Positions 2,350-29,056 of a DNA stretch of 29,240 bases are shown here, piece by piece (position 1 is the first letter of the stretch; every line of letters begins with the position of its first letter). A program made the position numbers and the translations under genes. Origin of the DNA: Bacteroides intestinalis (GTDB lineage: Bacteria; Bacteroidota; Bacteroidia; Bacteroidales; Bacteroidaceae); contig NZ_QRZF01000035.1 of NCBI RefSeq assembly GCF_003464595.1, positions 1 through 29,240 of the forward strand, written 5' to 3'. The notes below the pieces were generated by a model. The model had not been told where the DNA came from, searched no databases, and worked only from the letters and a program-made list of their open reading frames with translations.

Positions 2350-4875
2350 TTATAGGTCAACGACTGTGATTCCTACACCACCAAACTGCACATGTTCGTC
2401 GGCAAAATGCTTGATGCCGGGAACTGTTTGCAGGTATTGCCGGATAAGGGTACGCAAGATACCTGTGCCTGTTCCGTGAAGGATACGTACGCGTGACATA
2501 CCTACAAGGATAGCATCATCAATAAAGTAGGTTACTGCCTGTAGAGCTTCGTCACCACGCATGCCGCGTACATCGATGTCTTGCTTGAAGTGCAATTTCT
2601 TTTCGTACATGCTGTCCTGGGTTTGATTGCTGACAAAAGTACTCTTAGTAGAGGTGTCCACCTTTTGTGGGGCGGAATTTGTGCGTTCCAAACGTTCCAG
2701 CTTAACAGTGGTTTTGATACTGCCAAAAGCAATAATGGCATTTTTGCCATTTACCTCCAATACTTCGCCCACCGAGCTCTGGCCCTTTATCTTTACCATA
2801 GCTCCCGGGGTAATGCTTGCCAGGCGCTCAGCTTCCTGTTTGGCTTTTTGGGCAGCCAGTTCCTGGGCTGAAGGACTGTTGTTTGTATCTTTATTTTTCT
2901 TTTCTTTTTTTCGGTTCTGCTTTTCCTGCAATTTTTGCATTTTGAGGGCTATCTTCTCCTCTTGTTCTTTAGAGGCAAGAGCTTCCATCGATTCACGGAA
3001 CTCGGTCAGTTCCTGACGTGCCTGGCGGGTTTTCTCTTTTTCAGCCTGTGCTTCCTTAATGGTGCGGATGGTGTTTTCAATCCGTGCATTGGCTTCCTGT
3101 ACCAGCTGTTCTGCTTCCTCTTTAGCTTTACGGATAATCTCTTTGCGGGATTTCTGCAGGTCTTCCATTTCTGCCTGATAGCGGGAGATGGTATCTTCCA
3201 TATGCTTTTCACGCTGGCGGATAGTCTGACGTTTGCCTTCCCAGTATCGTTTATCGCGTACAATATCTTGCAGATACTTATCGGCATTAATATATTCGCT
3301 ACCCACAATTTCGGATGCATCTGCAATCACATCTTCCGGAAGACCGATCTTCCGGGCTATCTCTACGGCAAATGAACTTCCGGGATTACCTATCTGAAGT
3401 TGGAAAAGTGCCTGCATCAGGTGGCGGTCGTACAACATGGCTCCATTCACTACTCCTTCATGGTCTTCGGCAAAGTGCTTCAGATTCTGGTAGTGAGTAG
3501 TAATAACACCGAACGTCAGCTTTTGGTTGAAACGTTTCAGTACGGCTTCGGCGATGGCACCACCAATTTGTGGTTCGGTTCCACCACCAAATTCATCTAT
3601 AAGGATGAGACTGCGTTCATTGCAATTCTTCATCATTATCTTCATGTTGGTGAGATGTGAAGAGTAAGTACTCAGATCATCTTCAATGGACTGTTCGTCA
3701 CCTATATCGATGAATATACTGCTGAAGATACCGGTATGGCTACGTTCGTGCATAGGAACGAGCATACCACATTGCAACATATATTGTAACAATCCCACTG
3801 TCTTGAGGCAAACAGACTTACCACCCGCATTGGGACCGGATATAATAAGGATACGCTGCTTTTCAGTCAATTCAATATCGAGCGGAACTACTTTCTTACC
3901 GTGTTTGGCAAGGGAAAGTTGCAGCAATGGGTGTACAGCCATAGTCCAATCCAGTAACTGCGTATTTTCCAATGCAGGTTTTATACCTGATATTTGTAGG
4001 GAGAATAAGCTCTTGGCACGGATAAAGTCTATCTCTGCAAGGAATTCATATGACTGCAATACATCGGGAATGGAAGGGCGCAACAGGTTAGAGAATTCTA
4101 CCAGGATACGGATAATTTCCCTACGCTCATCTCCTTCCAGTTCGCGGATACGGTTATTGGCCTCTACTACTTCGGCAGGTTCTATAAATACGGTTTTTCC
4201 GCTTGCTGATTCGTCATGTACGATACCTTTAATCTTTCGTTTTAATCCCGGAGCAACCGGAATTACCAGACGGCCGTCACGCATGGTCGGGGTAACGTCT
4301 TTATCTACTACACCTTCCGACTGGGCATTGCGTAAGATGCTGTTCAGAGAACGGGATATGCTGTTCATGGTGCTCGCCAATTCACGACGAATACGTGCCA
4401 GCTCGGAAGAAGCATTATCTTTTATCTTTCCATAAGGTGAAAGTATATTATTTATTTTCTGAATCAGTTGCGGAAATGCCAATATATCCTTGGCGAGATT
4501 CCGGAGGCAAGGGTAGGGGGAGTCTTCTCCTTCTATGTCATCCTTTTCTAAAAAACGCACGATGTCCCGTATCGTTTCCAACGAACGGCGCAGGTCGAAA
4601 AGTTCCTGCTCATCCAGGTACATTCCCTCTATGCGTATTCGTTTCAGTGACGGACGGACGTCGAAAAAATACTGTGCGGGGAAGTTATCTTCCTCCTGTA
4701 TGATGCGTACGAATTCTGTAACGAGGTTCAGGCGTTCCTCCACTTCTTCAAAATGGTCGGAGAACGTCATATCGGCTACGCGTTCGGCACCTAATGTGCT
4801 GAGGCATTTTTCGCTCAACAACTGGCGTATTTGGTCGAAACCTATTTTAGGTTCAAAGTTCTGTGGATATATCAT
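2350..4875 (-). CDS. mutS2: Endonuclease MutS2 (ATPase with Smr domain)
   Basis: 841 aa, normal for the family. It has an N-terminal core and clamp, then a MutS-type ATPase with Walker A 'GPNAGGKS' and Walker B '[13 protein letters not shown]'. A long charged coiled-coil of E/K/R/Q follows, then a C-terminal Smr domain ('[13 protein letters not shown]' and '[12 protein letters not shown]'). MutS2 lacks the mismatch-recognition domain of MutS1. Family members suppress recombination by cutting branched DNA and, in Firmicutes, act on collided ribosomes; which applies here is not visible. It probably leads an operon with sdaA. A perfect -7 box lies only a few bases before the ATG. Confidence 0.95.
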
Positions 4876-17069: not shown

Positions 17070-17154
17070 GGAGAGGTGGCAGAGTGGTCGATTGCGGCGG
17101 TCTTGAAAACCGTTGTACTGCGAGGTACCCGGGGTTCGAATCCCTGTCTCTCCG
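17070..17154 (+). tRNA. tRNA-Ser (anticodon TGA), copy 2, integration target
   Basis: 85 nt, identical to 4989-5073. Its last 12 bases plus the following C form the left copy of the 13-bp direct repeat that bounds the mobile element. The gene remains intact because the element preserves the 3' end. Confidence 0.97.
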
Positions 17155-17155
17155 C
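17143..17155 (+). repeat. attL core (13-bp direct repeat)
   Basis: CCTGTCTCTCCGC at the 3' end of tRNA-Ser(UGA). It is repeated exactly at 29023-29035. The same 13-mer also occurs in the unoccupied tRNA copy at 5062-5074. Confidence 0.85.
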
Positions 17156-17188
17156 AATAAGCATTGAATTTCAATGATTTATAGGAAT

Positions 17189-17236
17189 AACACCCGATTT
17201 TACACCCAAGAATGTAAAATCGGGTGTTTTTTGTTT
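17189..17236 (+). terminator. Strong terminator inside the left end of the element
   Basis: AACACCCGATTTTAC (17189-17203) pairs perfectly with GTAAAATCGGGTGTT (17214-17228) and is followed by TTTTGTTTTATT. It lies 34 bp past the tRNA and replaces the host terminator displaced to 29057-29095. It also contains a TACACCCAA motif shared with the integrase promoter. Confidence 0.85.
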
Positions 17237-17315
17237 TATTTAAGATTTAATACTTCACTGGCCCATAGTTGGGTATAATTATAAATCATTTCTTGGAAAA
17301 CATATGAAATATTAG

Positions 17316-17323
17316 TATTTTTG
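17316..17323 (+). promoter_or_regulatory. -7 box of the PrimPol cargo operon
   Basis: TATTTTTG matches TAnnTTTG and lies 14 bp before the ATG of the 60-aa gene. A partial -33 element (CTTG) lies about 19 bp upstream. Confidence 0.5.
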
Positions 17324-17337
17324 AAAATAAAAACGAT

Positions 17338-17520
17338 ATGGAATATGAGGTTAAATATAAGCTGAATGGAACCGTTGGTGTTTATTATATAAACTTTTCT
17401 AATAATAATCTGCAAATGCGGGATATTAAGTATTCTATAAAAGTAGAATTGGCTAAGTATTTAAAATGTAATATAGAAATGGATAAATTGGAGATACTTT
17501 CCATAAATAAAATATCATAA
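17338..17520 (+). CDS. Small hypothetical protein upstream of the PrimPol-exonuclease
   Basis: 60 aa, ATG at 17338. No family is recognised. It has no signal peptide or membrane helix. The first half reads as alternating beta strands ('YEVKYKLNGTVGVYYINFSN') and the second as a helix plus strand rich in lysine ('SIKVELAKYLKCNIEMDKLEILSINK'). It has its own -7 box and ends 3 bp before the ATG of the PrimPol fusion, so the two are almost certainly one operon. The AT-rich composition is like that of the following gene. It could be a regulatory or accessory subunit. Confidence 0.65.
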   Translation: MEYEVKYKLNGTVGVYYINFSNNNLQMRDIKYSIKVELAKYLKCNIEMDKLEILSINKIS

Positions 17521-17523
17521 GTT

Positions 17524-19482
17524 ATGCAAAGCAACACAATCATTTGTAATAGAGACAAATTCTCGTTGTATTCTCATTTTTATAAGTCAATGGGGTTTCA
17601 AGTCACATTCATAAATGGATATTTTGGAAATAAGGGTGTTTTGCGCGTGTTTACATTTCAAAACTTCTGTAAATATTATGATAATGAGATATATAACATT
17701 AGTCTTGGATTGAAGGAGAATATACTTTGGGCGATATTTGAATGTCAAAAAGACTGTTCACCTATATTTAAAATTGATATAGTAAAAAATGGTGTAAATA
17801 GAATTTACGAGGCAATTAATTTGTCAAGTGGTATGGATGATGAAACTGATAGTGTTGCTACGGCTTTACCGTTTAGTAATTATTTCTGTTTTAGAAATTC
17901 TGCCCGTATAAAGGCTAATAAGTTTGAAGATTGGGATTGGTGGACTGATGCGGTTATTTGTGAATATAAAGATGTAGTTGCAAATAAGATAAGCTATCAA
18001 ATACTTCATTTAGATGAACTGGATTTGATAAAAACAGAAAATACAGACTTTACATTGTCACAATATGATTTTGTTCAACAATTTAAAAGACCTATTACTT
18101 ATTTTAGAAAAAGAAAGCACATAACGAATTGTTACAATAATATTGAATGGAAATCTTATTTTTGGAATTCCGCGACAGGTATTGGTGTCCTTTCTGGTGC
18201 TAATTCGTATAGGTGCATTGATATTGATGGCTGTTCTTCTACTGAATTTGTAAAACAGGTCTTATTATCTTTGGGCATTAAAGGCATATATGATTGGGTT
18301 ATTAGTACTGGAAGTAATAATGGTTTTCATGTTTGGATAAAGGTGGAAGAATTGCCTTCTAACTTACTAATGAATAGCCACGCAGAGAAGCTTTTTAAAA
18401 ATGCAGGTTTTATTGTTTTTGAGCCAAATGAAAAATATAAAAACGTTTTTAAACGAATAGAATTGAGATGGAAATGTCATGTAATAATGCCACCTTCTTT
18501 GTCTGGATATGGTTTCAATTATAATTTTATTGGTGGATTACCTCAAAATGATCCACAGACGATATCTTCTTCGGTCTTATTATCATCTTTGCAAGAATTT
18601 GGCTATAATACAGCATTAAATTATGAAGAAATAATCCATTGTAAAGTGACAAATATAGGACCTAGTGTCAGACGCTATGATTTATATCAGACAGTAATCC
18701 TTGTTTTGGATATTGAAACAACAGGACTGGCACAAGATTTGAACGTGTCTTTTGATAATATAGATAACTGGCCGTACGTAGTTCAAATAAGTTATCAAAT
18801 CTTTTCAGGTTATGATAATGATATATTGAAGGAGTCTGATTATATATTGAAACCAGATTGCTTCACAATTCCTGATGCTTCTGTTTCTATTCATGGAATT
18901 ACTAATGATAGGGCACAGGAAGAAGGATGGGATAGACGAGATTTTTATAGATATTTCGTGGAGCAGCTAAAAGCTGTTCATTATATAGTAGTTCATAATG
19001 CGGATTTTGATATAAATGTTCTTAAATGTGAGCTCTTGCGTTATACAGAGTTGTCAAAGGATGATATAAATCTACTGTTTTATGGAATATGTATTATTTG
19101 TACGATGAAGGCTACTGTAGATGTGTGTAAAATTGAAAGTAATATGGCTGATAGAAAGTACAAATACCCTTCTTTAAAGGAATTGTACAATTACTTATTT
19201 CACAAAGATTTTGATAATATGCATAATTCCTTGTATGACGTAAGAGCTACGGCAGAATGTTTTTGGGAATTATCTCAAAGAGGAATTATTAAATACTGTA
19301 AAAATTCTCCGATTCAATTAAATTTTGTTTCAGAAAATAAATATTGTTGTCAATGTGGCGGTTTGTTGGAATCGTCTTATTGTAACTTCCCTAAATGGGA
19401 TTGGGAGTTTACATTGCAATGTAAAAATTGTGGTTTGTTTTATGTGGCAGGCTATCGAACGGATGATGAATTGTATTTTTAG
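17524..19482 (+). CDS. Primase-polymerase / DEDDh 3'-5' exonuclease / zinc-ribbon fusion
   Basis: 652 aa. Residues 1-200 are not recognised. About 205-360 resembles bifunctional primase-polymerase (archaeo-eukaryotic primase fold): 'CIDIDG' with D233 and D235, 'STGSNNGFHVW' with H269, and 'RIELRWKCHVIMPPSLSGYGFNY'. About 391-585 is a DnaQ-like exonuclease with all DEDDh residues visible: D396 and E398 ('LDIETTG'), D496 in 'HNADFD', H567 and D572 ('HNSLYDVRAT'). C608, C611, C633 and C636 form a C-terminal zinc ribbon. It could prime or extend DNA and proofread or degrade ends, either to replicate the element or as defence cargo. It is AT-rich, sits at the element's edge and is oriented away from the tRNA. 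I know of no described protein with this domain set. Confidence 0.8.
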   Translation: MQSNTIICNRDKFSLYSHFYKSMGFQVTFINGYFGNKGVLRVFTFQNFCKYYDNEIYNISLGLKENILWAIFECQKDCSPIFKIDIVKNGVNRIYEAINLSSGMDDETDSVATALPFSNYFCFRNSARIKANKFEDWDWWTDAVICEYKDVVANKISYQILHLDELDLIKTENTDFTLSQYDFVQQFKRPITYFRKRKHITNCYNNIEWKSYFWNSATGIGVLSGANSYRCIDIDGCSSTEFVKQVLLSLGIKGIYDWVISTGSNNGFHVWIKVEELPSNLLMNSHAEKLFKNAGFIVFEPNEKYKNVFKRIELRWKCHVIMPPSLSGYGFNYNFIGGLPQNDPQTISSSVLLSSLQEFGYNTALNYEEIIHCKVTNIGPSVRRYDLYQTVILVLDIETTGLAQDLNVSFDNIDNWPYVVQISYQIFSGYDNDILKESDYILKPDCFTIPDASVSIHGITNDRAQEEGWDRRDFYRYFVEQLKAVHYIVVHNADFDINVLKCELLRYTELSKDDINLLFYGICIICTMKATVDVCKIESNMADRKYKYPSLKELYNYLFHKDFDNMHNSLYDVRATAECFWELSQRGIIKYCKNSPIQLNFVSENKYCCQCGGLLESSYCNFPKWDWEFTLQCKNCGLFYVAGYRTDDELYF

Positions 19483-19523
19483 AAGTGTTGTTATGTGTTA
19501 TATCTACTATGTTTACACGTAGG

Positions 19524-19568
19524 AAATAAAAGTGCAATTCATTAACAATCAGAATTGCACTTTTATTT
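19524..19568. terminator. Bidirectional terminator between PrimPol and relaxase genes
   Basis: AAATAAAAGTGCAATTC (19524-19540) pairs perfectly over 17 bp with 19552-19568 around an 11-nt loop. A and T runs at both stem ends give U-rich tails in each direction. The flanking genes converge here. Confidence 0.85.
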
Positions 19569-19582
19569 TCTGATTTAAACAA

Positions 19583-20986
19583 TTATAATTTGAATCCCCT
19601 GCTTTTTCTTGGTTCTTCTGCTGATATTCGTAAACTTGGCCGTAACTTATCAAACTGCTCTTTGAACCACTCTCCAATCGGCTGTCTGTTTATGGTCAGC
19701 ATAAGTTTACCGCTATCGGCTGGATTTTTCTCCACCTTGAAAATATCGTTTTTGATGTCAATTTTTCGTCTATGTTCCTCGGAATAAATCTTACCATTGC
19801 ATCTGATGGCTTCTTTCTTTGTCAAAAGACAATCTATCATATCTTTGGTAAACCCAATGACAGCGCATAGTCTTTCCATTCTCAACATTTCTCTAAACAT
19901 CGGAAACCACTTGAATGCCTTTTCAAGCAGAGTGTTCAGCCGTGATATTTCTCTGTCTTTAGCTTCAAGTTCTTGACTGTGTATTCCTTGAAGATTGCGT
20001 ATCTGTTTGTCATGTTGCTCTTGCATTTCCTGCATTTGGATTTTGAGGTTGTCAATACCTTTATCACGTTTGGCAACCTCTTGATGCAAATCTTCGTTGG
20101 TTCGCTCCAATTCTTTCAACTTTCCACTTCCGAAAAGAGAACCGACACCGCTTGCTATGGCAGTGGCCGCATCGGTGGCTACGCTTTTGAGTTTGTCCGT
20201 ACGTATCTCTGATTTTACTTGTCTGAGTTCCTGTTCGGCAAGATTTATCTGTTGTTCCTTGCGTCGTTTGGTTTCATCAATACGTTGCAGTTCGGCTTTC
20301 TGCTTTTCGATGATGAAATCATTTCGTTCCAAATGTTCCTTGCCTGTCTCGGATTTAGATTGTCCACGTTGCATGGAGAGTATGTCAGAAGCCAAAGTTT
20401 GCATTTCTATCATATCATTGTCATTGAGCTTTTGGCTCTTGCCTGTGTCGTGGTTCATCCAGTCGAATACGATGTGTGCGTGGTAATTCGGTTTGAACCA
20501 TTTTTCACCTACTTGGAAACTTTCCTTGTCCTCTGCATCAGGCTGTCCGTTCAGCCAATGCCCTTCATCTTTGTGCAGAAAGATTTGAAGCGGAGTGATG
20601 CCCCAACGTCTTTGGCATTCCTCGCTAAATTTCTTCACGTCTACCAATGTGGTGTCCGGTTTGATGAGCAACACACCCTCACGGATGGGCGAGCATCCTG
20701 CCACTTTTATGATTTTCCCGTTCTTCCCTTTGCGTTCACGCTCTTTCTCCTGCATGGCACGACCTGTCTTTTCCTTTACTATTTGTTTAATGTTGTCGTA
20801 GTGCGTCTGCAAATTCGAATTGCCGAATTCTGGGTTTACCCACTGCTCGTTGTCGGCAGAGAGTTCGGACACAATGTAGATTTTGGATTCACCGATATTA
20901 CGCATATATTCGGCAGTCCTTCGATTGTGAGCCTCACTTGATTTGGTGTTGCAAGGCTTGATATGTATGCTTGATTTTGTTGCCAT
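19583..20986 (-). CDS. MOBV-family relaxase (Mob/Pre)
   Basis: 467 aa. Motif I is 'SEAHNRR' with H20 (HNxR; the nucleophile in the pMV158 MobM relaxase is a histidine). The metal-binding motif is 'FLHKDEGHW' (H138, D140, E141) with 'PNYHAHIVFDW' (H169, H171). After about residue 230 comes a long Q/E/K/R coiled coil, then a C-terminal basic region ('EEPRKSRGFKL'). It nicks the element at oriT and leads the strand into a recipient through a helper's mating apparatus. The hairpin-rich region just upstream (21031-21201) is the likely oriT. Related relaxases occur on Tn4555- and Tn5520-like Bacteroides elements. Confidence 0.92.
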   Translation of the reverse strand: MATKSSIHIKPCNTKSSEAHNRRTAEYMRNIGESKIYIVSELSADNEQWVNPEFGNSNLQTHYDNIKQIVKEKTGRAMQEKERERKGKNGKIIKVAGCSPIREGVLLIKPDTTLVDVKKFSEECQRRWGITPLQIFLHKDEGHWLNGQPDAEDKESFQVGEKWFKPNYHAHIVFDWMNHDTGKSQKLNDNDMIEMQTLASDILSMQRGQSKSETGKEHLERNDFIIEKQKAELQRIDETKRRKEQQINLAEQELRQVKSEIRTDKLKSVATDAATAIASGVGSLFGSGKLKELERTNEDLHQEVAKRDKGIDNLKIQMQEMQEQHDKQIRNLQGIHSQELEAKDREISRLNTLLEKAFKWFPMFREMLRMERLCAVIGFTKDMIDCLLTKKEAIRCNGKIYSEEHRRKIDIKNDIFKVEKNPADSGKLMLTINRQPIGEWFKEQFDKLRPSLRISAEEPRKSRGFKL

Positions 20987-21030
20987 AGTTATTCTGTTTT
21001 CATTGTATAATAGATTACTTTGTTTGCTTT

Positions 21031-21201
21031 CGCAGAGGGGTTCTTAGGGGTGTAACCCATAAGCGGAGTTTCCAAAGAGAAGGTCACTCTTTGGTCTGGG
21101 TTCTCAGGGGAGAAACGCCCTGAGGGGTCATTAGGGCAAAGCCCTAATCCTCTCGGGAGAGCCCACAACTACGAAAGCGAAGCGTGTAGTTATAGTGGGC
21201 T
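21031..21201. other. Candidate oriT: series of inverted repeats upstream of the relaxase gene
   Basis: Four perfect stem-loops occur in 130 bp: CCAAAGAG-N7-CTCTTTGG (21072-21094), CTCAGGG-N8-CCCTGAG (21103-21124), ATTAGGGC-AAA-GCCCTAAT (21130-21148), and AGCCCAC plus AACTAC paired with GTAGTT plus GTGGGCT (21160-21201). The last one overlaps the primase stop codon. The segment is non-coding, richer in G and C than its surroundings, and directly upstream of the relaxase start. The nick site is not identified. Confidence 0.65.
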
Positions 21202-22156
21202 ATAACCGAAAGCCGTTTTTCTTTTTCGGTGGCCGGCTGTGCGTCTCTTTTGCAGACTGGGCTTGCCTCTTTCTTTCAGTCTGTTTCTGTAAGTATTCGT
21301 TCAAGTCCTTGCATCCGCTGTAGGTCTGCGAAGCATCACGGATGTATAAGTCCCTGCCGTATTCCACACGTATTTGTTGGAGTGCTTCCATCCCTGCACG
21401 GTCATTGTCAAAGAAACAATGGATGCGCTCGTAGCTCCCCAAAGGATAGAGAGCTTTGGAAACATTGGCTACGGAATTCAGCACCATATAATCTTGCCTG
21501 TCCAGTTCGGGATATTTCGGGCAATTCTCCAATCTCAAAGTAAGGAATGAAAGATAGTCCATAAACCCCTCGAACACATAACACGTTTCCCTCGCTGTTC
21601 CCGGCTGTTTGATATGGGAAATCTCTTTCGGGGCAATACAGCCTTTAAAATATCGGTTGCGGATTTCATACCCACCCGACACGTTGGGAAAGGCGATGGC
21701 AAAGTACTGTTTGCCGTTGTTGATAAAGTGCGCTTCACTGCATTCTCTTTTCGCCAGTACAATGTTTATTCCCCTCTCCTGCAAATAGGTGAGCAGGGCA
21801 GGAGAAGAAAGCGGTACAATTTCCAGTTGTTGAAAACTTGGCTCGGAAGATGACTGCTTGCCAAAAGAAAAAGATATGGGACGAATACGGGGTGTCTGCT
21901 CTTCGATTCTTTGCAGGAGATATGGCACATGGTCGGAACAATAAAGTTCCTGTGTCAGTGCGATGATATTCCCACCCTTGCCGAGTGCAAAATCATACCA
22001 TTGGTTACGCTCTGTATTCACCTTGAACGAGGCTTCCGTTTCTTCCCTTAGCGGTGACTTGTACCACAGGTTTATGCCCTGTTGTTTGACTGGAGAAAAG
22101 CCCAAACTGTGCAGATAATCCGCTATTTTGATTTGTCTCGCTGTCTGTATATCCAT
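21200..22156 (-). CDS. TOPRIM-domain primase (DnaG-like, degenerate zinc finger)
   Basis: 318 aa from the ATG at 22156 ('MDIQTARQIKIADYLHSLGFSP', the usual start for this family). Longer in-frame starts exist at 22192 and 22240. The N-terminal segment 'LWYKSPLREETEASFKVNTERNQWYDFALGKGGNII' aligns with the DnaG CHC2 zinc finger pattern, but the cysteines and histidine are replaced. The TOPRIM domain has 'YVFEGFMDYLSF' and 'HCFFDNDRAG' (E and DxD metal residues). The C-terminal tail is basic. It probably primes replication of the transferred or excised strand. The repeat array between this gene and the ATPase gene could be its origin. Confidence 0.85.
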   Translation of the reverse strand: MDIQTARQIKIADYLHSLGFSPVKQQGINLWYKSPLREETEASFKVNTERNQWYDFALGKGGNIIALTQELYCSDHVPYLLQRIEEQTPRIRPISFSFGKQSSSEPSFQQLEIVPLSSPALLTYLQERGINIVLAKRECSEAHFINNGKQYFAIAFPNVSGGYEIRNRYFKGCIAPKEISHIKQPGTARETCYVFEGFMDYLSFLTLRLENCPKYPELDRQDYMVLNSVANVSKALYPLGSYERIHCFFDNDRAGMEALQQIRVEYGRDLYIRDASQTYSGCKDLNEYLQKQTERKRQAQSAKETHSRPPKKKNGFRL

Positions 22157-22204
22157 AAAATGATAGGTTTGATGATAATTGAATTGGTTCATTTCTCTTT
22201 TCGC

Positions 22205-22354
22205 CCGTACCTCTTTATGAAGTACGGTCTTTATAATCACTTCACTTTATTTTCGTATATATAGAGTACGGTAATAAAGTGAAGTGGTTTTGCCACATTC
22301 CGCAACCACTTCGCTTTATCCCTAATATATAGACCCTCGGAATAAAGTGAAGTG
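22205..22354. repeat. Iteron-like array, candidate replication origin or operator region
   Basis: AATAAAGTGAAGTG occurs at 22273-22286 and 22341-22354 (+), exactly at 22238-22251 (-) and with two changes at 22307-22320 (-). This makes two head-to-head pairs with AT-rich spacers of 21 and 20 nt, each containing TATATAGA. CCGTAC (22205-22210) is inverted as GTACGG at 22222-22227 and 22266-22271. The array fills the gap between the ATPase and primase genes. Confidence 0.75.
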
Positions 22355-22369
22355 ATTGTAAGGTGTGGG

Positions 22370-23446
22370 CTAATAGTGGAAGTCGGGCATGAACGTGTAC
22401 TTCCTGCCGTTCTCCTGCACTATCATCCGTTTGTTGCGAAGCATGATGATGAGCGGTACCGCCTTTTGATGGTTCAGCTTTACACCTATTGACGTGTAGC
22501 TTTTGATTAAAGCATCTTCCAGCTCCTTGTAGCCGTATTCCTTTTTCAGTCCGAAAACTGTTTCCAGCGCGATGCGGTGCTGCTGTTCGGTGATATGCCT
22601 GTAAGGATCGAACTTTTCCTCTTCCGGTCTTCCCGGTTTCTTGGCTTCGGGCTTGTACCCCTCCATGAGTTCGGGCAGGGCGTTGTCGTTGATACGGAAT
22701 GCGAAAGGCTCGAAATCCATTGCCCGTATGTGCATGGCTGAAACATTGCTTATATCTCCATTGTTCTTGTCCTTTTCCACAAGGAGTACGGTTTCTGCCT
22801 TGTTGTTCAGTTCAGTACCGATATGTCCCCTCGCGTTCTCATCCCCCTTGTTCTGGTGGAGTATCGTGTGGATATGTATCTGCCTGTCGTCCGTCCACTG
22901 CATCAGTTTGGATATGATGCGTGTCGATTCTCCGGGACTGTTGATGTCATATACCATGTCACGGATGCCGTCTATGATTACAAGGGCTATGTCAGGCGTA
23001 TTGTAGATAGCCTGCTCTACAATTCTGATACGCTGTTCGGGCGTGTATTTCCTCAAAGCGAGAAATTCCAGATGCTCATTGTCCCTGTCATAGGGAAGCC
23101 TGGCCATCCGTAAAATACGCTTCATGACTTTCAGGCAATGATAAGGGCTCTGTTCCGTGTCCACATAAAGGATTTTCCGTTTGTCTTCCGGAAGTTCTGC
23201 CACATATCGCAATGCCGTACCGTTCTTCAATGCGGCGGCTACGATAGCCGACACATTGAACGTCTTTTTACTTTTGGCTTTGCCGATGGATGCGCTGAAA
23301 TTCCCCAATGTCCCTATGACGGAACCATGTACTTTGAGAATTTCCGGTGCTTTCTCGTAACTTTTCGACAGGCTCAAACGTGAGGCTTGCCAAAGGATTA
23401 CGGCTTCTTCTGCCGATATTTCCTTGTTGTCTTTCATATAATCCAT
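22370..23446 (-). CDS. RepA-like AAA/RecA-fold ATPase (mobilizable-element replication helicase)
   Basis: 358 aa, start supported by a strong GGAGGTG 7 bp before the ATG. It has a P-loop in the unusual form 'SIGKAKSKKTF' (residues 53-63), 'KILYVDTEQSPYHCLKVMKRIL' after strand 2, and Walker B 'DIALVIIDGIRDM' (D159). This fits the AAA_25/RepA branch of hexameric helicase-like ATPases common on Bacteroides mobilizable elements. The C-terminal region ('KPGRPEEEKFDPYRHI' then a winged-helix-like end) may bind DNA. It probably works with the neighbouring primase at the repeat array. It is co-transcribed with the DUF3853 gene (14-bp gap). Confidence 0.85.
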   Translation of the reverse strand: MDYMKDNKEISAEEAVILWQASRLSLSKSYEKAPEILKVHGSVIGTLGNFSASIGKAKSKKTFNVSAIVAAALKNGTALRYVAELPEDKRKILYVDTEQSPYHCLKVMKRILRMARLPYDRDNEHLEFLALRKYTPEQRIRIVEQAIYNTPDIALVIIDGIRDMVYDINSPGESTRIISKLMQWTDDRQIHIHTILHQNKGDENARGHIGTELNNKAETVLLVEKDKNNGDISNVSAMHIRAMDFEPFAFRINDNALPELMEGYKPEAKKPGRPEEEKFDPYRHITEQQHRIALETVFGLKKEYGYKELEDALIKSYTSIGVKLNHQKAVPLIIMLRNKRMIVQENGRKYTFMPDFHY

Positions 23447-23460
23447 AAGTACACCTCCAG

Positions 23461-23769
23461 TTATTTTCGTCCTCCGGTTTTCTTTCCGGCCAGTTCAAGG
23501 GCAAGTTCCGCATCAACGATAATCTTGCGCCCTATTTGCGTAATGGCTTTGTCAATCTTTCCGCTTTTCTTTATACGGTTGGCGGTGGGCAGACTGCACC
23601 CGAACAGTTTGGCAATGCCAAGTATTCCGTACACATACTTTCTTTCTGTGTCCGTGACGGGCTGCGGTTGCGCTTCCGTTTGGTTGGAAGCGTGCTTGCT
23701 TAGGAATATGAACTCTTCGCCTGTCATCTGCCAGACGGGTTTTAATAATAACTCTTGAAGATTTGTCAT
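23461..23769 (-). CDS. DUF3853-family helix-turn-helix protein
   Basis: 102 aa. The C-terminal half 'YVYGILGIAKLFGCSLPTANRIKKSGKIDKAITQIGRKIIVDAELALELA' is a MerR/excisionase-like winged helix-turn-helix. The N-terminal half ('LLLKPVWQMTGEEFIFLSKHAS') is characteristic of DUF3853, found on Bacteroides mobile elements ahead of the RepA-like ATPase. It may be a regulator of the replication operon or a directionality factor. It is the first gene of the leftward DUF3853-RepA unit, with a -7 box about 70 bp upstream. Confidence 0.85.
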   Translation of the reverse strand: MTNLQELLLKPVWQMTGEEFIFLSKHASNQTEAQPQPVTDTERKYVYGILGIAKLFGCSLPTANRIKKSGKIDKAITQIGRKIIVDAELALELAGKKTGGRK

Positions 23770-23838
23770 CGTCCAATCTATTTAGTCGTTTAACAATCAG
23801 CCCTGCGCACTGGCTGTTATTTCTGTTCTCGAACGATG

Positions 23839-23846
23839 CAAAATTA
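23839..23846 (-). promoter_or_regulatory. Candidate -7 box of the DUF3853-RepA-primase operon
   Basis: TAATTTTG on the minus strand, about 70 bp upstream of the DUF3853 ATG. In the leader, CAGCC-N9-GGCTG could fold into a small hairpin. No -33 TTTG is seen. Confidence 0.4.
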
Positions 23847-23925
23847 GGTATGGCTGTAAGTGGTAAGGATGTGGATGATATAAATAGGATGTTGTGCTAT
23901 CTCATTAAATATCAGACAATAAAAA

Positions 23926-23953
23926 TACCACTCAAAAATTATTTTGAGTGGTA
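23926..23953 (-). terminator. Terminator of the AT-rich cargo genes
   Basis: TACCACTCAAAA (23926-23937) pairs perfectly with TTTTGAGTGGTA (23942-23953) around a 4-nt loop. On the minus strand it is followed by TTTTTATTG, so it ends transcription from the cargo operon before the replication operon. Confidence 0.75.
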
Positions 23954-24038
23954 AAAGTGGAACTTTCGTGAAACATCAATGGATATCACTGATTAGCAGA
24001 AAGAGTTGTGTTTGTTTATGAATCTTTTTAATATGTGG

Positions 24039-24605
24039 TCAATCAGGATTATGTTTGAATCTAATATTTAAAATTTCTCTCATTTTGTTTATTTGTTCTT
24101 GCGTTGCTTTGCCTAATTCTTTTCTTGGAATTTTCAATCTGCGCATCTTGTTCTTAATGATTCTAATTAATGTTTTTTCCCATTTGGGACTAATGCCAGT
24201 ATCAGGAATTTCTATTATAATATGGTCACTCACTTGAGAAACTTTTTCGCCTTTATGCCCATACGCGATTCTTAGGCCTTTTGATTGAAAAATGGCATCA
24301 ATAATAGAATAATGATTCTTCAAAGAGAATACAATGCTAAAATTATAATCTATAGGTTTATAGAATCTTATATTTAAGATCCATCTATCGACATTAAATA
24401 ATGATGACAATGTTCCACCCCACTGAACTTCAACATCTCCCATTGATATATTGGAATGTAATTTAATGATTTCTTTTATATAATCATCTTCTTTAGAACT
24501 GATTACTATAGAAGGTATTAATCGCCCATCTGCGTAATCTCGACTTGCAAATAACCCTTCTTCATTGATATTATATATTGGTGTTGATATTTTTTTAATC
24601 ATCAT
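24039..24605 (-). CDS. Hypothetical AT-rich cargo protein
   Basis: 188 aa, soluble, no signal peptide. No family recognised. The N-terminal two thirds look beta-rich and the C-terminal 60 residues are strongly basic and helical ('KWEKTLIRIIKNKMRRLKIPRKELGKATQEQINKMREILNIR'), which could bind nucleic acid or a membrane surface. It overlaps the upstream membrane-protein gene by 11 bp, so the two are translationally coupled. Composition is markedly more AT-rich than the element backbone, suggesting separate acquisition. Confidence 0.65.
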   Translation of the reverse strand: MMIKKISTPIYNINEEGLFASRDYADGRLIPSIVISSKEDDYIKEIIKLHSNISMGDVEVQWGGTLSSLFNVDRWILNIRFYKPIDYNFSIVFSLKNHYSIIDAIFQSKGLRIAYGHKGEKVSQVSDHIIIEIPDTGISPKWEKTLIRIIKNKMRRLKIPRKELGKATQEQINKMREILNIRFKHNPD

Positions 24606-25137
24606 AATGAATCTCTTTAATTAACAAACTTTCCGCTTTAGATACGTTATTCTCTACATCTTGAACAATTATTCTATATTTCTCAATGCGTCTATTTTTA
24701 AAAATTTCTGGAATTTGAAAAATAACCCAACCATATTTTATATCCTTGGGTTCTAGTTGAATATTGTTATCATATTTTTCAATTTGAGAGTGGTGTTTTT
24801 TATGGAATAAGTTTTTATCATATGATAATTTTATAGTTCTTATAATACCGTTCTCTTTGTAATCTATTTCTAATTTGGGTAGAACTGTATTTCTATAAGA
24901 AGATTTGTTTTTTACCGTAATACAAAATACAGCATGTGTGTGTTTTGAGGAATTATATGATATTCTATAACAATTCTCTATATAAACAGAGAAATTTGGC
25001 TTTTTGGATATAAAATCTTCTTTATCCATCCTATGCTTTTGATTTGAAATTATTATTTGTCTCATTGTGATAAAAAGTGTAATAATTCCTATAATTGCGC
25101 CTATTATTACATTGTTTTCTTGTATTAATTCTAACAT
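24595..25137 (-). CDS. Hypothetical membrane-anchored protein
   Basis: 180 aa from the ATG at 25137. The frame is open upstream to 25272, but that part overlaps the preceding gene. Residues 1-33 contain one membrane helix ('NNVIIGAIIGIITLFITMRQIII'), followed by a basic segment ('SNQKHRMDKEDFISKK') that would stay in the cytoplasm. The remainder looks like a beta-sandwich ('PNFSVYIENCYRISYN', 'HAVFCITVKNKSSYRNTVLPKLEIDYK', 'KYGWVIFQIPEIFKNRRIEKYRIIVQD'). No family recognised. It is coupled to the 188-aa gene. Small membrane proteins paired with a cytoplasmic partner are common in defence cargo, but nothing specific supports that here. Confidence 0.65.
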   Translation of the reverse strand: MLELIQENNVIIGAIIGIITLFITMRQIIISNQKHRMDKEDFISKKPNFSVYIENCYRISYNSSKHTHAVFCITVKNKSSYRNTVLPKLEIDYKENGIIRTIKLSYDKNLFHKKHHSQIEKYDNNIQLEPKDIKYGWVIFQIPEIFKNRRIEKYRIIVQDVENNVSKAESLLIKEIHYDD

Positions 25138-25168
25138 AAGTTTAACGATATAAATAATACTACTTATT

Positions 25169-26206
25169 TTAATTAAATATGCTTTCCATTTCTTTGGCGA
25201 ATTTTTGGTTGCTGTCACTCGGAAAATCAGAAACGGGTTCTTTGTATTTTGACCGATAATAACTCTCGTCAATATCCAACAGTTTTAATATTTGGCTCCT
25301 CCATTCATCCCTGTATTGCTTGGATAGTTTCTCGCTCATCAGGAATATCAGATAACACACCCGTATCTTTTCCCTTGCCTTGATTTTTAGTTTGTTCTTG
25401 CAGGGGTACAAGTTTATATTGGCATAGAAGTCCGCTATGGTAATGGCTTCGAACTGTTCCCCGACACAGGTTTCATAAATAGGCGAAAGCGGCTTCATGT
25501 CAAAATATTCATGCTGTTTCTCCGGTGTATTCTGTACTTCTTCTTGCGCATTTTGCTCGACTGATTCCTCTGGTCGTTTTTCTTCCACATCATCAGGAAG
25601 GTATTTTTTCAGGACTTCCATAAAAAGAAGGCTTAGGCGGTAAACATCACCGGAAAGGTTTTCCGTATATTGAAAAGCCTCTTTCCTGTCTTGCTTTTGC
25701 AGTTCATAGAGTTTGTCCAATGCCTTCTTTTCTTTGTCGTATTCAGCCTTGCAACGTTCATACTCCTTCTCAGCCAGTATTTCTTCTTCATTCGTATGAG
25801 GTCTAAAACCAATGAAATCATATCTATGGTATGCATCATTCAAAGGCTCATGCAATTTAGTTGTAATCTCCAACTGGTCTTTTATTGCAGAATTATGCCT
25901 GTCTATGTATTGGAAACATACACGTTTTACGGTGTCATCACTTAGTGGTCTTGTCTCATAAGCCCGTATATTCTTTTCTATTTCGATTTTCAGACTATTG
26001 AGAATCAATGTGTATTGTTCTTTCTGCTTGTCAAGTATCAGTTCAAGGATAGCGGATTCAAAAGCCTTTGTATCATTGTGCTGCCTGTAAAAATCGGTGA
26101 TGAATTTTTGCTTGTCAAAAGAAAATGCATAATTGGTTATCCAATCATTATATATCCTGTTGAGTTCTCCGTATAGGGGAATTAGTTTGTTTATTTCTCC
26201 TGCCAT
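25169..26206 (-). CDS. Hypothetical charged, coiled-coil protein of the DUF1016 cargo operon
   Basis: 345 aa from the ATG at 26206 (an in-frame TTG at 26215 overlaps the DUF1016 stop). Cytoplasmic, no known domain. Long helical, charged segments at about 50-95 and 140-200 ('EEEILAEKEYERCKAEYDKEKKALDKLYELQKQDRKEA') suggest a coiled coil. An acidic low-complexity linker ('EEKRPEESVEQNAQEEVQNTPEKQHE') precedes a compact C-terminal domain. It starts 5 bp after the DUF1016 stop, so the two are one transcription unit and probably act together. The function is unknown. Confidence 0.7.
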   Translation of the reverse strand: MAGEINKLIPLYGELNRIYNDWITNYAFSFDKQKFITDFYRQHNDTKAFESAILELILDKQKEQYTLILNSLKIEIEKNIRAYETRPLSDDTVKRVCFQYIDRHNSAIKDQLEITTKLHEPLNDAYHRYDFIGFRPHTNEEEILAEKEYERCKAEYDKEKKALDKLYELQKQDRKEAFQYTENLSGDVYRLSLLFMEVLKKYLPDDVEEKRPEESVEQNAQEEVQNTPEKQHEYFDMKPLSPIYETCVGEQFEAITIADFYANINLYPCKNKLKIKAREKIRVCYLIFLMSEKLSKQYRDEWRSQILKLLDIDESYYRSKYKEPVSDFPSDSNQKFAKEMESIFN

Positions 26207-26211
26207 AGATT

Positions 26212-27510
26212 TCAATTTTGGGGATTATTGTCCTTGTCAAGGAAAGATGCCAGTTCTTCTTCTACCTCTTCCACGCTTGGCAAAGCTGATTTCAAGTTTT
26301 CGGGTATAGCCTTGCTCAACTGGTAATCACTGATACCTATCGGCTGGTCGTAGCCTGTCAAAGCGTATTGTGCCACAACCTCGTCTTTTCCCTTGCACAG
26401 CAACAGCCCGATAGTCTTGTTGTCATTTTCTCCCCTCAGTTTGTCATCCACCACATTGATGTAGAAATTCAATTGTCCTGCATACTCCGGTTTGAATGGG
26501 GTTGCTTTCAATTCCACTACGATATATGCGTGTAGGGGAATGGAATATAGAATAAGGTCGGCAAAGAAATCGCTGTTGCCTATTTGAAAATGCTTTTGCC
26601 GGGCGACAAAGGCAAAACCATTGCCCATTTCCAACAAATAACGGGTAACGTGCTTTACCAACTGTTCTTCTATGTCTCTTTCGTCTTCCTTTTCTTTCGC
26701 TCCTGCCAAATCGAAGATATACGGGTCTTTCAACAGGTAATTGGCAAGGTCGCTTTGTGGTGCCGGAAGTGTGGCTGTAAAATTGTTTACCTTGTTGCTG
26801 CTGATTTGTCTGTTATATAAGTTGGTTTCAATTTGTATTTTAAGAATATTGCTGCTCCAGCCCATTTCTACCGATTGCTTCATATACCAATATCCTATGC
26901 CTAACGGTAATGCTCCGTCAAGTATGACCATTTGGCTTGCCCAGTTTATTTTGGCAACAGGGGAGGTCAGGAAAACTTTTTCTATCTCCCTAATCTCCAT
27001 CCTGTAAATGGCAGAAACTGTTTTCTCCACGTCCTGAATTTGCGCAGGAGCCTCCTGCGTAAATTCTAAAGACTGGCAATCAACAGATTGTATTTGCGCA
27101 GTAAGTTCCTGCGTAAATCGTCCGTTATTTAGTTTCAATACTTCATCTGTAACATTCTGTATGCTTGGAACAGATAGTCTTGCATCCGTGTCAATGAAAC
27201 TTCGTAGCACGTTCAGCGGATATGACCGTGCGAATTGGCACATATAAGTAAGGTTACGTTCCGAATAGCCTTTCTTTTCAGGATAATTGAATCGGATAGC
27301 CTTTGCCAGTTGCTTGATGATTTTGCTTCCCCAGCCTTGTAAGTTCTGATGATACAGGATATAGTTGCCCATTTTCCAGTAATGGAATAGCATTTGCGCA
27401 TTGGCTGCGGTAATCAGCCGGACTTGCGCTTGTTCTATTTCCGAACCGACAGCATGAACAAATGCGTCAAAGTTCGTTCTTTCTATATGATGTTCTTTGT
27501 TGTTTTCCAT
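26212..27510 (-). CDS. DUF1016 / YhcG-family PD-(D/E)XK nuclease
   Basis: 432 aa. The DUF1016 N-terminal domain (about 14-100) contains 'YWKMGNYILYHQNLQGWGSKIIKQLAKAI' and 'GYSERNLTYMCQFA'. The C-terminal nuclease (about 255-405) has D318 ('SDFFADLILY'), E333-x-K335 ('VVELKATPF') and Q346 ('YAGQLNFY'), a complete PD-(D/E)XK site. Between them is a linker carrying two in-frame 18-residue repeats (about 130-165). Family members are frequent near restriction-modification and other defence genes, with no settled function. It is first in a leftward cargo operon just downstream of the integrase. A -7 box TATATTTG lies 23 bp upstream. Confidence 0.9.
   Translation of the reverse strand: MENNKEHHIERTNFDAFVHAVGSEIEQAQVRLITAANAQMLFHYWKMGNYILYHQNLQGWGSKIIKQLAKAIRFNYPEKKGYSERNLTYMCQFARSYPLNVLRSFIDTDARLSVPSIQNVTDEVLKLNNGRFTQELTAQIQSVDCQSLEFTQEAPAQIQDVEKTVSAIYRMEIREIEKVFLTSPVAKINWASQMVILDGALPLGIGYWYMKQSVEMGWSSNILKIQIETNLYNRQISSNKVNNFTATLPAPQSDLANYLLKDPYIFDLAGAKEKEDERDIEEQLVKHVTRYLLEMGNGFAFVARQKHFQIGNSDFFADLILYSIPLHAYIVVELKATPFKPEYAGQLNFYINVVDDKLRGENDNKTIGLLLCKGKDEVVAQYALTGYDQPIGISDYQLSKAIPENLKSALPSVEEVEEELASFLDKDNNPQN
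27036..27120. repeat. Two palindromic 31-bp repeats inside the DUF1016 coding region
   Basis: 27036-27066 and 27090-27120 are 31-bp near-palindromes built on TTTGCGCAG and CTGCGTAAA, starting 54 bp apart. They encode the duplicated 'FTQE..AQIQ' segments of the inter-domain linker, exactly 18 codons apart, so the reading frame is kept. Confidence 0.7.
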
Positions 27511-27532
27511 GTTTCAATGTTTATTGTTGTCG

Positions 27533-27540
27533 CAAATATA
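27533..27540 (-). promoter_or_regulatory. -7 box before the DUF1016 gene
   Basis: TATATTTG on the minus strand matches TAnnTTTG. It lies between the integrase stop and the DUF1016 start. There is no clear -33, and read-through from the integrase is also possible because no terminator is visible in between. Confidence 0.4.
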
Positions 27541-27579
27541 ATTCAAATAGTGGATAATTTATGAAACTGATTGATACTT

Positions 27580-28863
27580 TTATAGTTGGTTAAACTTGTT
27601 CATGGCATTTGCCTTAATATCATCCGCTATGTCAATATAAGGTTTCATGGCTTTATAGTCGCTATGCCCCGTCCATTTCATTACTACCTGTGCCGGAATA
27701 CCGAGAGCCAGCGCATTGCAAATAAATGTTCTTCTTCCTGCATGGGTGCTTAGCAATGCGTATTTCGGGGTGACTTCATCTATACGTTCATTTCCTTTAT
27801 AATAAGTCTCCCGTACAGGCCCATTGATTTCAGCCAGTTCCCCCAATTCTTTCAAATAATCATTCATCTTTTGGTTACTGATGACGGGCAGTACCATATG
27901 GTTTTCAAAATGAACTTCCTTGTATTTTTCAAGTATGGCTTTGCTGTGGTCGTTAAGTTCAATTATCAGACTGTCTGCCGTTTTGACTGTGGTAACTTCG
28001 ATATGGTCGGGTTTCACATCGCTTCTTTTCAGGTTACGAACATCTGAATATCGCAGACTTGTGAAGCAACAGAACAGAAAAACGTCCCTGACACGTTCCA
28101 GATATTGTTTGTCTTTTGGTATCTGGTAATCTTTCAGTCTGTTCAATTCGTCCCAAGTCAGGAATATCACCTTTTTAGAGGTGGTTTTCAATTTGGGTTT
28201 GAAAGTATCGTATGCCATGTTCTGATGATGCCCTTTTTTGAAGCTCCAGCGCAGAAACCATTTGAGGAATCCCATCTGTTTGCCGATGGTGCTGTTCCTC
28301 ATATCCTTTTTGTCACGCAGGAAATTCACATACTCGTTCAAGCCGAACTCATTGAAGTATTCAAAGGTTACATCTTCCTTGAACTCTTTGAGGTGGTTTT
28401 TCACTGCTGAGAATTTCTCGTAGGTGGATGCCGTCCAATTATTCTGATTGCCACACTCCTTTACAAATTCATCGAATACCTCCCAAAAGCTTATCTGTGT
28501 TTCTTCCTGCTGCTCTTCGTTGGCATCTTTCATCCGCAGGTTGAACGCATCCTTTAGCTGTTGGGTGGTTGGCATGGCTTCCTGTACCTCAAATTCCTTG
28601 AATACGTTTTGAATCTCGGCATAGTATTTCAGCAAGTCCGCATTGATTTCGGATGCGCTTTGCTTTAGTTTGTTGGTGCATCCGTTCTTTACCCGTTGTT
28701 TGTCGGCATCCCATTTGGCTACATCAATCCGATAGCCTGTTGTAAACTCGATGCGTTGGCTTGCATATATGACACGCATACGGATGGGTACGTTCTCCAC
28801 GATTGGCACTCCGTTCTTTTTCCGGCTTTCCAATGCAAAAATGATGTTACGTTTGATATTCAT
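27580..28863 (-). CDS. Tyrosine recombinase / integrase of the element
   Basis: 427 aa from the ATG at 28863 ('MNIKRNIIFALESRKKNGVPI', the usual start of this Bacteroides integrase group). An upstream in-frame ATG at 28920 lies before the predicted transcription start and is rejected. It has an N-terminal arm-binding domain, a SAM-like core-binding domain (about 125-225, 'SFWEVFDEFVKE'), and a catalytic domain with R271 ('SLRYSDV'), K294, H374 and R377 ('HAGRRTF'), H400 ('TGHSDY') and the nucleophile Y409 ('MKPYIDI'). It should integrate and excise the element at tRNA-Ser. It lies 160 bp inside attR and is transcribed away from it. Confidence 0.96.
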   Translation of the reverse strand: MNIKRNIIFALESRKKNGVPIVENVPIRMRVIYASQRIEFTTGYRIDVAKWDADKQRVKNGCTNKLKQSASEINADLLKYYAEIQNVFKEFEVQEAMPTTQQLKDAFNLRMKDANEEQQEETQISFWEVFDEFVKECGNQNNWTASTYEKFSAVKNHLKEFKEDVTFEYFNEFGLNEYVNFLRDKKDMRNSTIGKQMGFLKWFLRWSFKKGHHQNMAYDTFKPKLKTTSKKVIFLTWDELNRLKDYQIPKDKQYLERVRDVFLFCCFTSLRYSDVRNLKRSDVKPDHIEVTTVKTADSLIIELNDHSKAILEKYKEVHFENHMVLPVISNQKMNDYLKELGELAEINGPVRETYYKGNERIDEVTPKYALLSTHAGRRTFICNALALGIPAQVVMKWTGHSDYKAMKPYIDIADDIKANAMNKFNQL

Positions 28864-28884
28864 AATTGGGTGCGTTTGAAATTC

Positions 28885-28921
28885 TACACCCAAATATACA
28901 CCCAATATTCGGAATAGCAAA
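28885..28921 (-). promoter_or_regulatory. Integrase promoter overlapped by TACACCCAA repeats
   Basis: On the minus strand TTTG (28921-28918), 19 bp, then TATATTTG (28898-28891), a full consensus promoter about 28 bp before the integrase ATG. TACACCCAA occurs twice over it (28885-28893 and 28897-28905), with an inverted partial copy (ATTGGGTG) at 28865-28872. Another TACACCCAA lies at 17201-17209 near the left end. These may be integrase arm sites or an autoregulatory operator. Confidence 0.65.
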
Positions 28922-29022
28922 AGGCATTTAGAAAGATTTAGATTTACCCTATACTTTGGATAGTATATGATTATCAGTGATTTGCAATTTTATGATATTT
29001 CTTGAAAGTATAGGTTCAAGAG

Positions 29023-29035
29023 CCTGTCTCTCCGC
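29023..29035 (+). repeat. attR core (13-bp direct repeat)
   Basis: CCTGTCTCTCCGC, identical to the tRNA 3' end at 17143-17155. It is preceded by GGTTCAAGAG, a diverged version of the tRNA T-arm GGTTCGAATC, so only a tRNA remnant is present here. Confidence 0.85.
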
Positions 29036-29056
29036 TATAAAGAATTGCAAAGTAAA

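Follow-up and report, generated by a model that had tools for sequence, protein, structure and literature searches.

A primase-polymerase fused to a DEDDh exonuclease as accessory cargo of a mobilizable element in Bacteroides intestinalis

The window analysed here is a 29,240-nt stretch of Bacteroides intestinalis DNA (contig NZ_QRZF01000035.1). It carries a gene (17524..19482, + strand) for a 652-aa protein in which a primase-polymerase of the archaeo-eukaryotic primase (AEP) type is fused to a DEDDh exonuclease. The fusion architecture is real and conserved, and the gene is an accessory gene in the cargo slot of a mobilizable element integrated at tRNA-Ser. As far as we searched, a PrimPol-DEDDh fusion has not been described. 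As to its function, we lean towards defence.

The AEP (Prim-Pol) fold spans residues about 9-367 (17548..18624, +) and is interrupted by an insertion at residues about 31-186 (17614..18081, +). Minimal relatives, which do not have this ~155-residue insertion, reach the same point after 25-45 aa. The view of the N-terminus as an unrecognised extra domain, drawn from the preliminary description of this DNA, is not supported. With motifs I, II and III taken to be DxD, H and an acidic residue, the set is complete: D233 and D235 (18220..18228, +), H269 (18328-18330, +) and E313 (18460-18462, +). The exonuclease domain (residues 390-593; 18691..19302, +) has both the D-E-D-H-D residues and a DnaQ-like fold, and it is followed by a four-cysteine ribbon (C608/C611/C633/C636; 19345..19431, +). 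Exonuclease matches dominated the full-length fold search and thereby masked the AEP, which was therefore modelled alone; structure comparison of this model recovered the AEP fold. Hence both halves of the fold comparison proposed in the preliminary description came out positive, and its central claim, the presence of AEP, DEDDh exonuclease and ribbon in one chain, is confirmed by fold and residues. The profile search it had also proposed was positive for the exonuclease only (PF00929, 43.6 bits against a cut-off of 24). For Prim-Pol (PF09250) the window protein scores 19.7 bits, below the gathering cut-off of 22.8, and because of this score we assign it to the AEP superfamily and not to PF09250; the relatives P0103, P0105 and P0110 and the proteins of loci L155 and L156 are above the cut-off. 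Judged by its intact folds and catalytic residues, the window protein is an enzyme with two active sites for DNA, both activities being predicted.

Searches for further domains were negative. Solved structures gave zero sequence matches to the fusion protein at E up to 1, the 652 aa showed no ligase profile (Pfam, E up to 1), and neither helicase nor PolB domains were detected (Pfam, NCBIfam). NCBIfam polymerase and DinG models align solely to the exonuclease part. The insertion could be given no fold; PCNA-like Foldseek matches had a TM of about 0.08.

Searches among 5.8 billion proteins returned 59, 56 and 10 matches and led to a set of 113 proteins, including the window's own (P0001) and a primase added by translation (P0104). 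With our own profiles (E up to 1e-5), the AEP was found in 84/113, the exonuclease in 109/113 and both in 80/113, so that the homologue survey bears out a recurring fusion. Most fusions are short (420-480 aa in 52/80); source names put members of this length in Gelidibacter, Ilyomonas, Mariniphaga and Cyclobacteriaceae. Leaving out P0002, which is one residue apart from P0001, and six partial sequences (P0011, P0066, P0082, P0084, P0086, P0097), 73 near-full fusions remained. Over these, AEP and exonuclease distances are correlated with r 0.80, a value reached in 0/2000 permutations (uncorrected for relatedness), as expected of a lastingly joined fusion. The AEP site DDHE is kept in 69/73 and the exonuclease site DEDHD in 64/73. 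The nine altered exonuclease sites are those of P0010, P0062, P0065, P0087-P0090, P0103 and P0105; the four altered AEP sites are those of P0096 and, with H changed to Q, of P0107-P0109. This exchange need not be inactivating, since the excerpted text of PMC5862659 reports relaxed conservation of the histidine in PrimPol-PV1, a supergroup that it defines by the flange-region arginine of motif IV.

Additional modules vary among the relatives. The four-cysteine ribbon was found only in P0001 and P0003-P0010 of the 73 fusions, and BspA-type leucine-rich repeats (LRRs) stand ahead of the AEP in P0019-P0021, P0023, P0094-P0096 and the L156 protein. Where the family AEP is missing, the DEDDh exonuclease is paired with repeats of the WG or MORN type or with a long C-terminal region. 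The AEP of P0003 is 99% identical to that of P0001 and its exonuclease 99% identical to that of P0005; either P0003 has exchanged a domain or its assembly is chimeric.

AEP matches were found in at least 2/399 family genomes and at least 16/395 phylum genomes; these tallies are lower bounds, as in many genomes only some first-look candidates were scored. The AEP-bearing open reading frames (ORFs) of these samples encode 699-813 aa, except in genomes G001 and G093, and these two were also the only genomes with matches in further family and class samples (G093, 1/92; G001, 1/97). As expected, the rarity of the fusion fits an accessory gene. A phage origin is unsupported, since searches of phage and viral collections either found nothing or matched the exonuclease alone. 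No matching phage record covers 80% of the query (0/105 for P0001, 0/39 for P0032). Among the phage matches listed (best 20 each), alignments begin at residues of at least 300 in P0001 and at least 204 in P0032, and the best 80 of 96 phage and viral loci all align from residue 375 on. None of the viral stretches retrieved with fusion patterns (35 and 103) encodes a relative.

The element that carries the gene extends from 17143 to 29040. It is flanked by 18-bp repeats that are 17/18 identical: CCTGTCTCTCCGCAATAA (17143..17160, +), which lies in the 3' end of its integration target tRNA-Ser (tga; 17070..17155, +), and CCTGTCTCTCCGCTATAA at the far end (29023..29040, +). Counted from the left end, the fusion gene is the element's first large ORF, and it converges on the mobilization protein gene (19583..20986, -), in agreement with the cargo position that the preliminary description had assigned to it. 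The mobilization protein, which we take to be relaxase-like, has no Pfam match; homologues 73.7-73.9% identical to it are annotated 'mobilization protein'. Also as described before, the fusion gene is distinct from the element's CHC2/TOPRIM primase, which has its own gene (21200..22240, -). An AAA_25 ATPase (22370..23446, -) and a tyrosine integrase (27580..28920, -) are encoded as well (all three by Pfam).

The same element is present in a Bacteroides faecalis genome, with a fusion protein that differs in two residues. Codon differences of the fusion gene (3 synonymous and 2 non-synonymous to the L002 copy, 9 and 4 to the L001 copy) are too few for a selection test. The mobilization protein occurs in 39/221 genomes sampled from the family of the B. 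faecalis genome (E up to 1e-40). An AEP or DEDDh of the fusion type was found in 0/20 sister-element stretches past the mobilization gene, 5/20 of which end within 4.5 kb. Instead, the slot holds lnu(AN2) with mef(En2), acetyltransferases or lipoprotein-like genes, often common to several of the 20, and L198 carries a type IIG restriction enzyme and a methyltransferase farther along. The left-end site is an exchange slot, and position by itself is silent on defence; we rejected the slot as proof of a defence role because the sister elements hold mixed cargo.

The sister element L194 has lnu(AN2) and mef(En2) near its mobilization gene (2351-4093). In genome G531, the gene for an 814-aa LRR-AEP-DEDDh protein (L156:174-2618) is flanked by a tRNA-Asp and by the C-terminal part of a mobilization protein of the window's type. 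In genome G722, a WG-DEDDh gene (L172:8306-10447) begins about 130 bp past a tRNA-Ser with the attachment motif. A further WG-DEDDh relative (L173:9913-13185) adjoins SLFN_AlbA_2 and DUF2971/PDC-S31 genes.

Outside this element family, neighbourhoods were read at two loci. On plasmid pHsw1 of Hymenobacter swuensis (L092:1-17950), an annotated DNA methyltransferase comes first, followed by a type III Res (matching REase_III at 3.3e-200), a helicase, P0103 and DinG. The helicase beside P0103 is a 1673-aa sacsin-type ATPase/SF1 protein resembling TmtA/MkoA, the DinG-type helicase gene starts within the AEP gene, with an overlap of 17 bp, and three genes farther along match PDC-M64B/C candidates. 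This region looks like a composite defence region. In the Bacteroidota genome G093 (L155:9062-19530), one strand encodes an Orf5/HEC-06-like protein, presumably of the DUF262 type, followed by IetA, IetS and HsdR and then by the AEP protein and an ORF of 88 aa; among five ORFs further on, defence models were unmatched save for two weak RmrA hits. P0103 keeps the four AEP residues and has a degenerate exonuclease; the G093 protein is above the Prim-Pol cut-off, and its exonuclease scores 14.5 bits with the motifs lost. Because the exonucleases at both loci are degenerate, these contexts count more for the AEP than for the whole enzyme.

From the neighbours of these two relatives, we take action against invading DNA to be the most likely role of this accessory cargo, with a probability of slightly less than one half. 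The AEP, being of the pRN1 type, would make or extend DNA 3' ends, and the covalently joined DnaQ-like exonuclease would trim them. Nearby restriction nucleases and helicases could supply ends and single-stranded stretches, and synthesis and editing at the ends of the invader might block its re-replication or leave poor substrates; marked ends or a product toxic to the cell itself are other conceivable outcomes. Synthesis would be the core act and trimming its control or modulator, since the exonuclease site is altered in more of the fusions (9/73) than the AEP site (4/73) and is degenerate at both restriction-linked loci. The LRRs ahead of the module in some relatives are possible sensors. 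This reading is also favoured by the patchy distribution, by the lack of the fusion in the phage and viral material searched, and by the resemblance of the LRR protein of L156 (1.2e-9) and the WG protein of L172 (5.2e-9) to the PADLOC candidate PDC-S48.

Several observations weigh against a role in defence. Most members keep the exonuclease residues, as ordinary proofreading would also lead one to expect, and all of the 4/73 proteins with an altered AEP keep an intact exonuclease. Just two defence contexts were read, each with a degenerate exonuclease half, unlike that of the window protein. With the 2023 PADLOC models, the window protein gave only a generic DEDDh match (2.2e-21) and weak PDC-S48 matches (4.7e-4 and 0.013), none of which names it. 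The slot cargo is mixed and not defence-specific, and the slot of G531 adjoins tRNA-Asp with a mere piece of the mobilization gene.

More speculatively, AEP-DEDDh proteins might serve as effectors in a class of Bacteroidota immunity that has not been described, in which a DNA-writing polymerase tethered to its own eraser acts on invader DNA. Gene and domain shuffling would wire it to varied inputs, either restriction nucleases together with helicases of the DinG and sacsin types or LRR and other repeat sensors, and the exchange slot would spread it among gut Bacteroides. We hold this extended proposal only tentatively, at roughly one chance in three, below that of the simpler role.

Of the two main rival readings, a role in establishing the element itself seems unlikely. 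The fusion would then prime and proofread the complementary strand on incoming single-stranded DNA, or otherwise aid replication of the element, which would suit a gene adjoining the mobilization gene at the element's edge; moreover, the two AEP relatives checked in the genome sample consist of Prim-Pol and PriCT_2 (780 and 792 aa). However, the element already encodes a TOPRIM primase and an AAA protein of its own, such a gene was found in none of the 20 sister-element stretches (5 of them ending within 4.5 kb), the AEP has no fused helicase, and relatives are located within restriction clusters. Somewhat less probable again is cargo for DNA repair or damage tolerance, with gap filling and end trimming as in LigD minus the ligase: the 10 element ORFs scanned contain no ligase or Ku profile (Pfam), the distribution is patchy, and two relatives have restriction neighbours. 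A helper of spacer acquisition resembling CRISPR-associated primase-polymerases (CAPPs), whose AEP would fill and whose DEDDh would trim prespacers, is very improbable, as Cas1, Cas2 and effector models of PADLOC are unmatched among the 11 element proteins and among the 9 pHsw1 and 10 G093-locus proteins scanned (both loci partly covered), although CRISPR-labelled DinG and DEDDh models do match at pHsw1 and G093, and as CAPP is farther in fold than pRN1 or NrS-1.

The closest known systems for the AEP are the PrimPol domain of pRN1 ORF904 (1rni, 3m1m, 9aam) and the primase-polymerase of phage NrS-1, both of which we take to be replicases. Compared with these, the window protein has no helicase and has the ~155-residue insertion and the fused exonuclease. 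The exonuclease is close to E. coli epsilon/DnaQ-type enzymes (2gui, 2ido, 8h2f) but is joined to an AEP and does not serve a replicative polymerase; S. aureus DinG (8zef) has an N-terminal DEDDh too, but its partner is a helicase. LigD differs from the window protein in having a ligase, and its nuclease is presumably of another fold than DEDDh. To our knowledge, the DNA-making enzymes of bacterial immunity are mainly reverse transcriptases and CRISPR-linked primases, and an immune role of the fusion would bring in a second superfamily of polymerases that works independently of CRISPR. AEPs are, as far as we know, generally thought to have no proofreading-type domain; the fusion would thus be a useful biochemical object even if it is not immune, and, as a two-site enzyme of gut commensals, it would be small and open to testing.

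The preliminary description knew this architecture from no described system. For the two-domain PrimPol-DEDDh protein this still holds, in that no account of it was found in the open full-text literature, represented mostly by titles and the starts of abstracts. For the broader combination there are precedents. GP55 of lactococcal phage 1706 (helicase-AEP-PolB) has a 3'-5' exonuclease in the same chain as its AEP, but according to the portion of PMC12205980 consulted it is a 1317-aa phage replicase with helicase and PolB, and its exonuclease is a PolB subdomain. LigD combines AEP, nuclease and ligase in one chain according to extracts of PMC4538821, in the main text of which the word 'exonuclease' occurs 0 times. 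Among the sources in their excerpted form, GP55 and LigD are nearest in build and CAPPs nearest in theme. CAPPs tie AEPs to immunity, with one class in Bacteroidetes; no Cas1/Cas2 neighbour was seen for the window protein, and the passages of PMC8211822 mention no fused exonuclease. Primpols fused to a D5 helicase are named in the excerpt of PMC10853773.

A 60-aa ORF (17338..17520, +; no Pfam match) ends 3 nt before the fusion gene and is a possible partner or regulator of it. The identical 60 aa are encoded in L001 and L002, and, copies of the same element apart, none of the loci gave a homologue; a match in L173 (41% over 29 residues, E 0.016) was dropped. The promoter that the preliminary description had attributed to the fusion gene finds no backing: 15 sigma-70-like sites were found against a shuffle mean of 15.5, and the pattern that we took as the Bacteroides-type promoter has no exact match from the tRNA to the fusion gene. 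A retron-like structured RNA partner was rejected, as the tRNA is the sole Rfam match and folding of the upstream leader is hardly above shuffles (z -0.66). Between the convergent fusion and mobilization genes lies a 21-pair hairpin (19520..19572, no strand assigned), likely a bidirectional terminator, and the 100-nt intergenic stretch folds far beyond shuffles (z -5.93 on the + strand, -4.53 on the - strand). The terminator scan, with a loop limit of 8, did not report this hairpin, the loop of which is 11; it returned one hairpin ahead of the fusion gene (17189-17228) and another inside the gene.

The element's TOPRIM primase weakly matches the PADLOC DRT-associated DnaG-like model (1.4e-8) over its TOPRIM part only, which probably just reflects the shared TOPRIM. 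A second cargo region (24039-27510) contains a YhcG nuclease (26212..27510, -; PADLOC candidate PDC-S02) and three ORFs without an above-cut-off Pfam family. In B. faecalis, an additional 448-aa ORF (L171:8912-10258), possibly a transposase, is inserted in this region.
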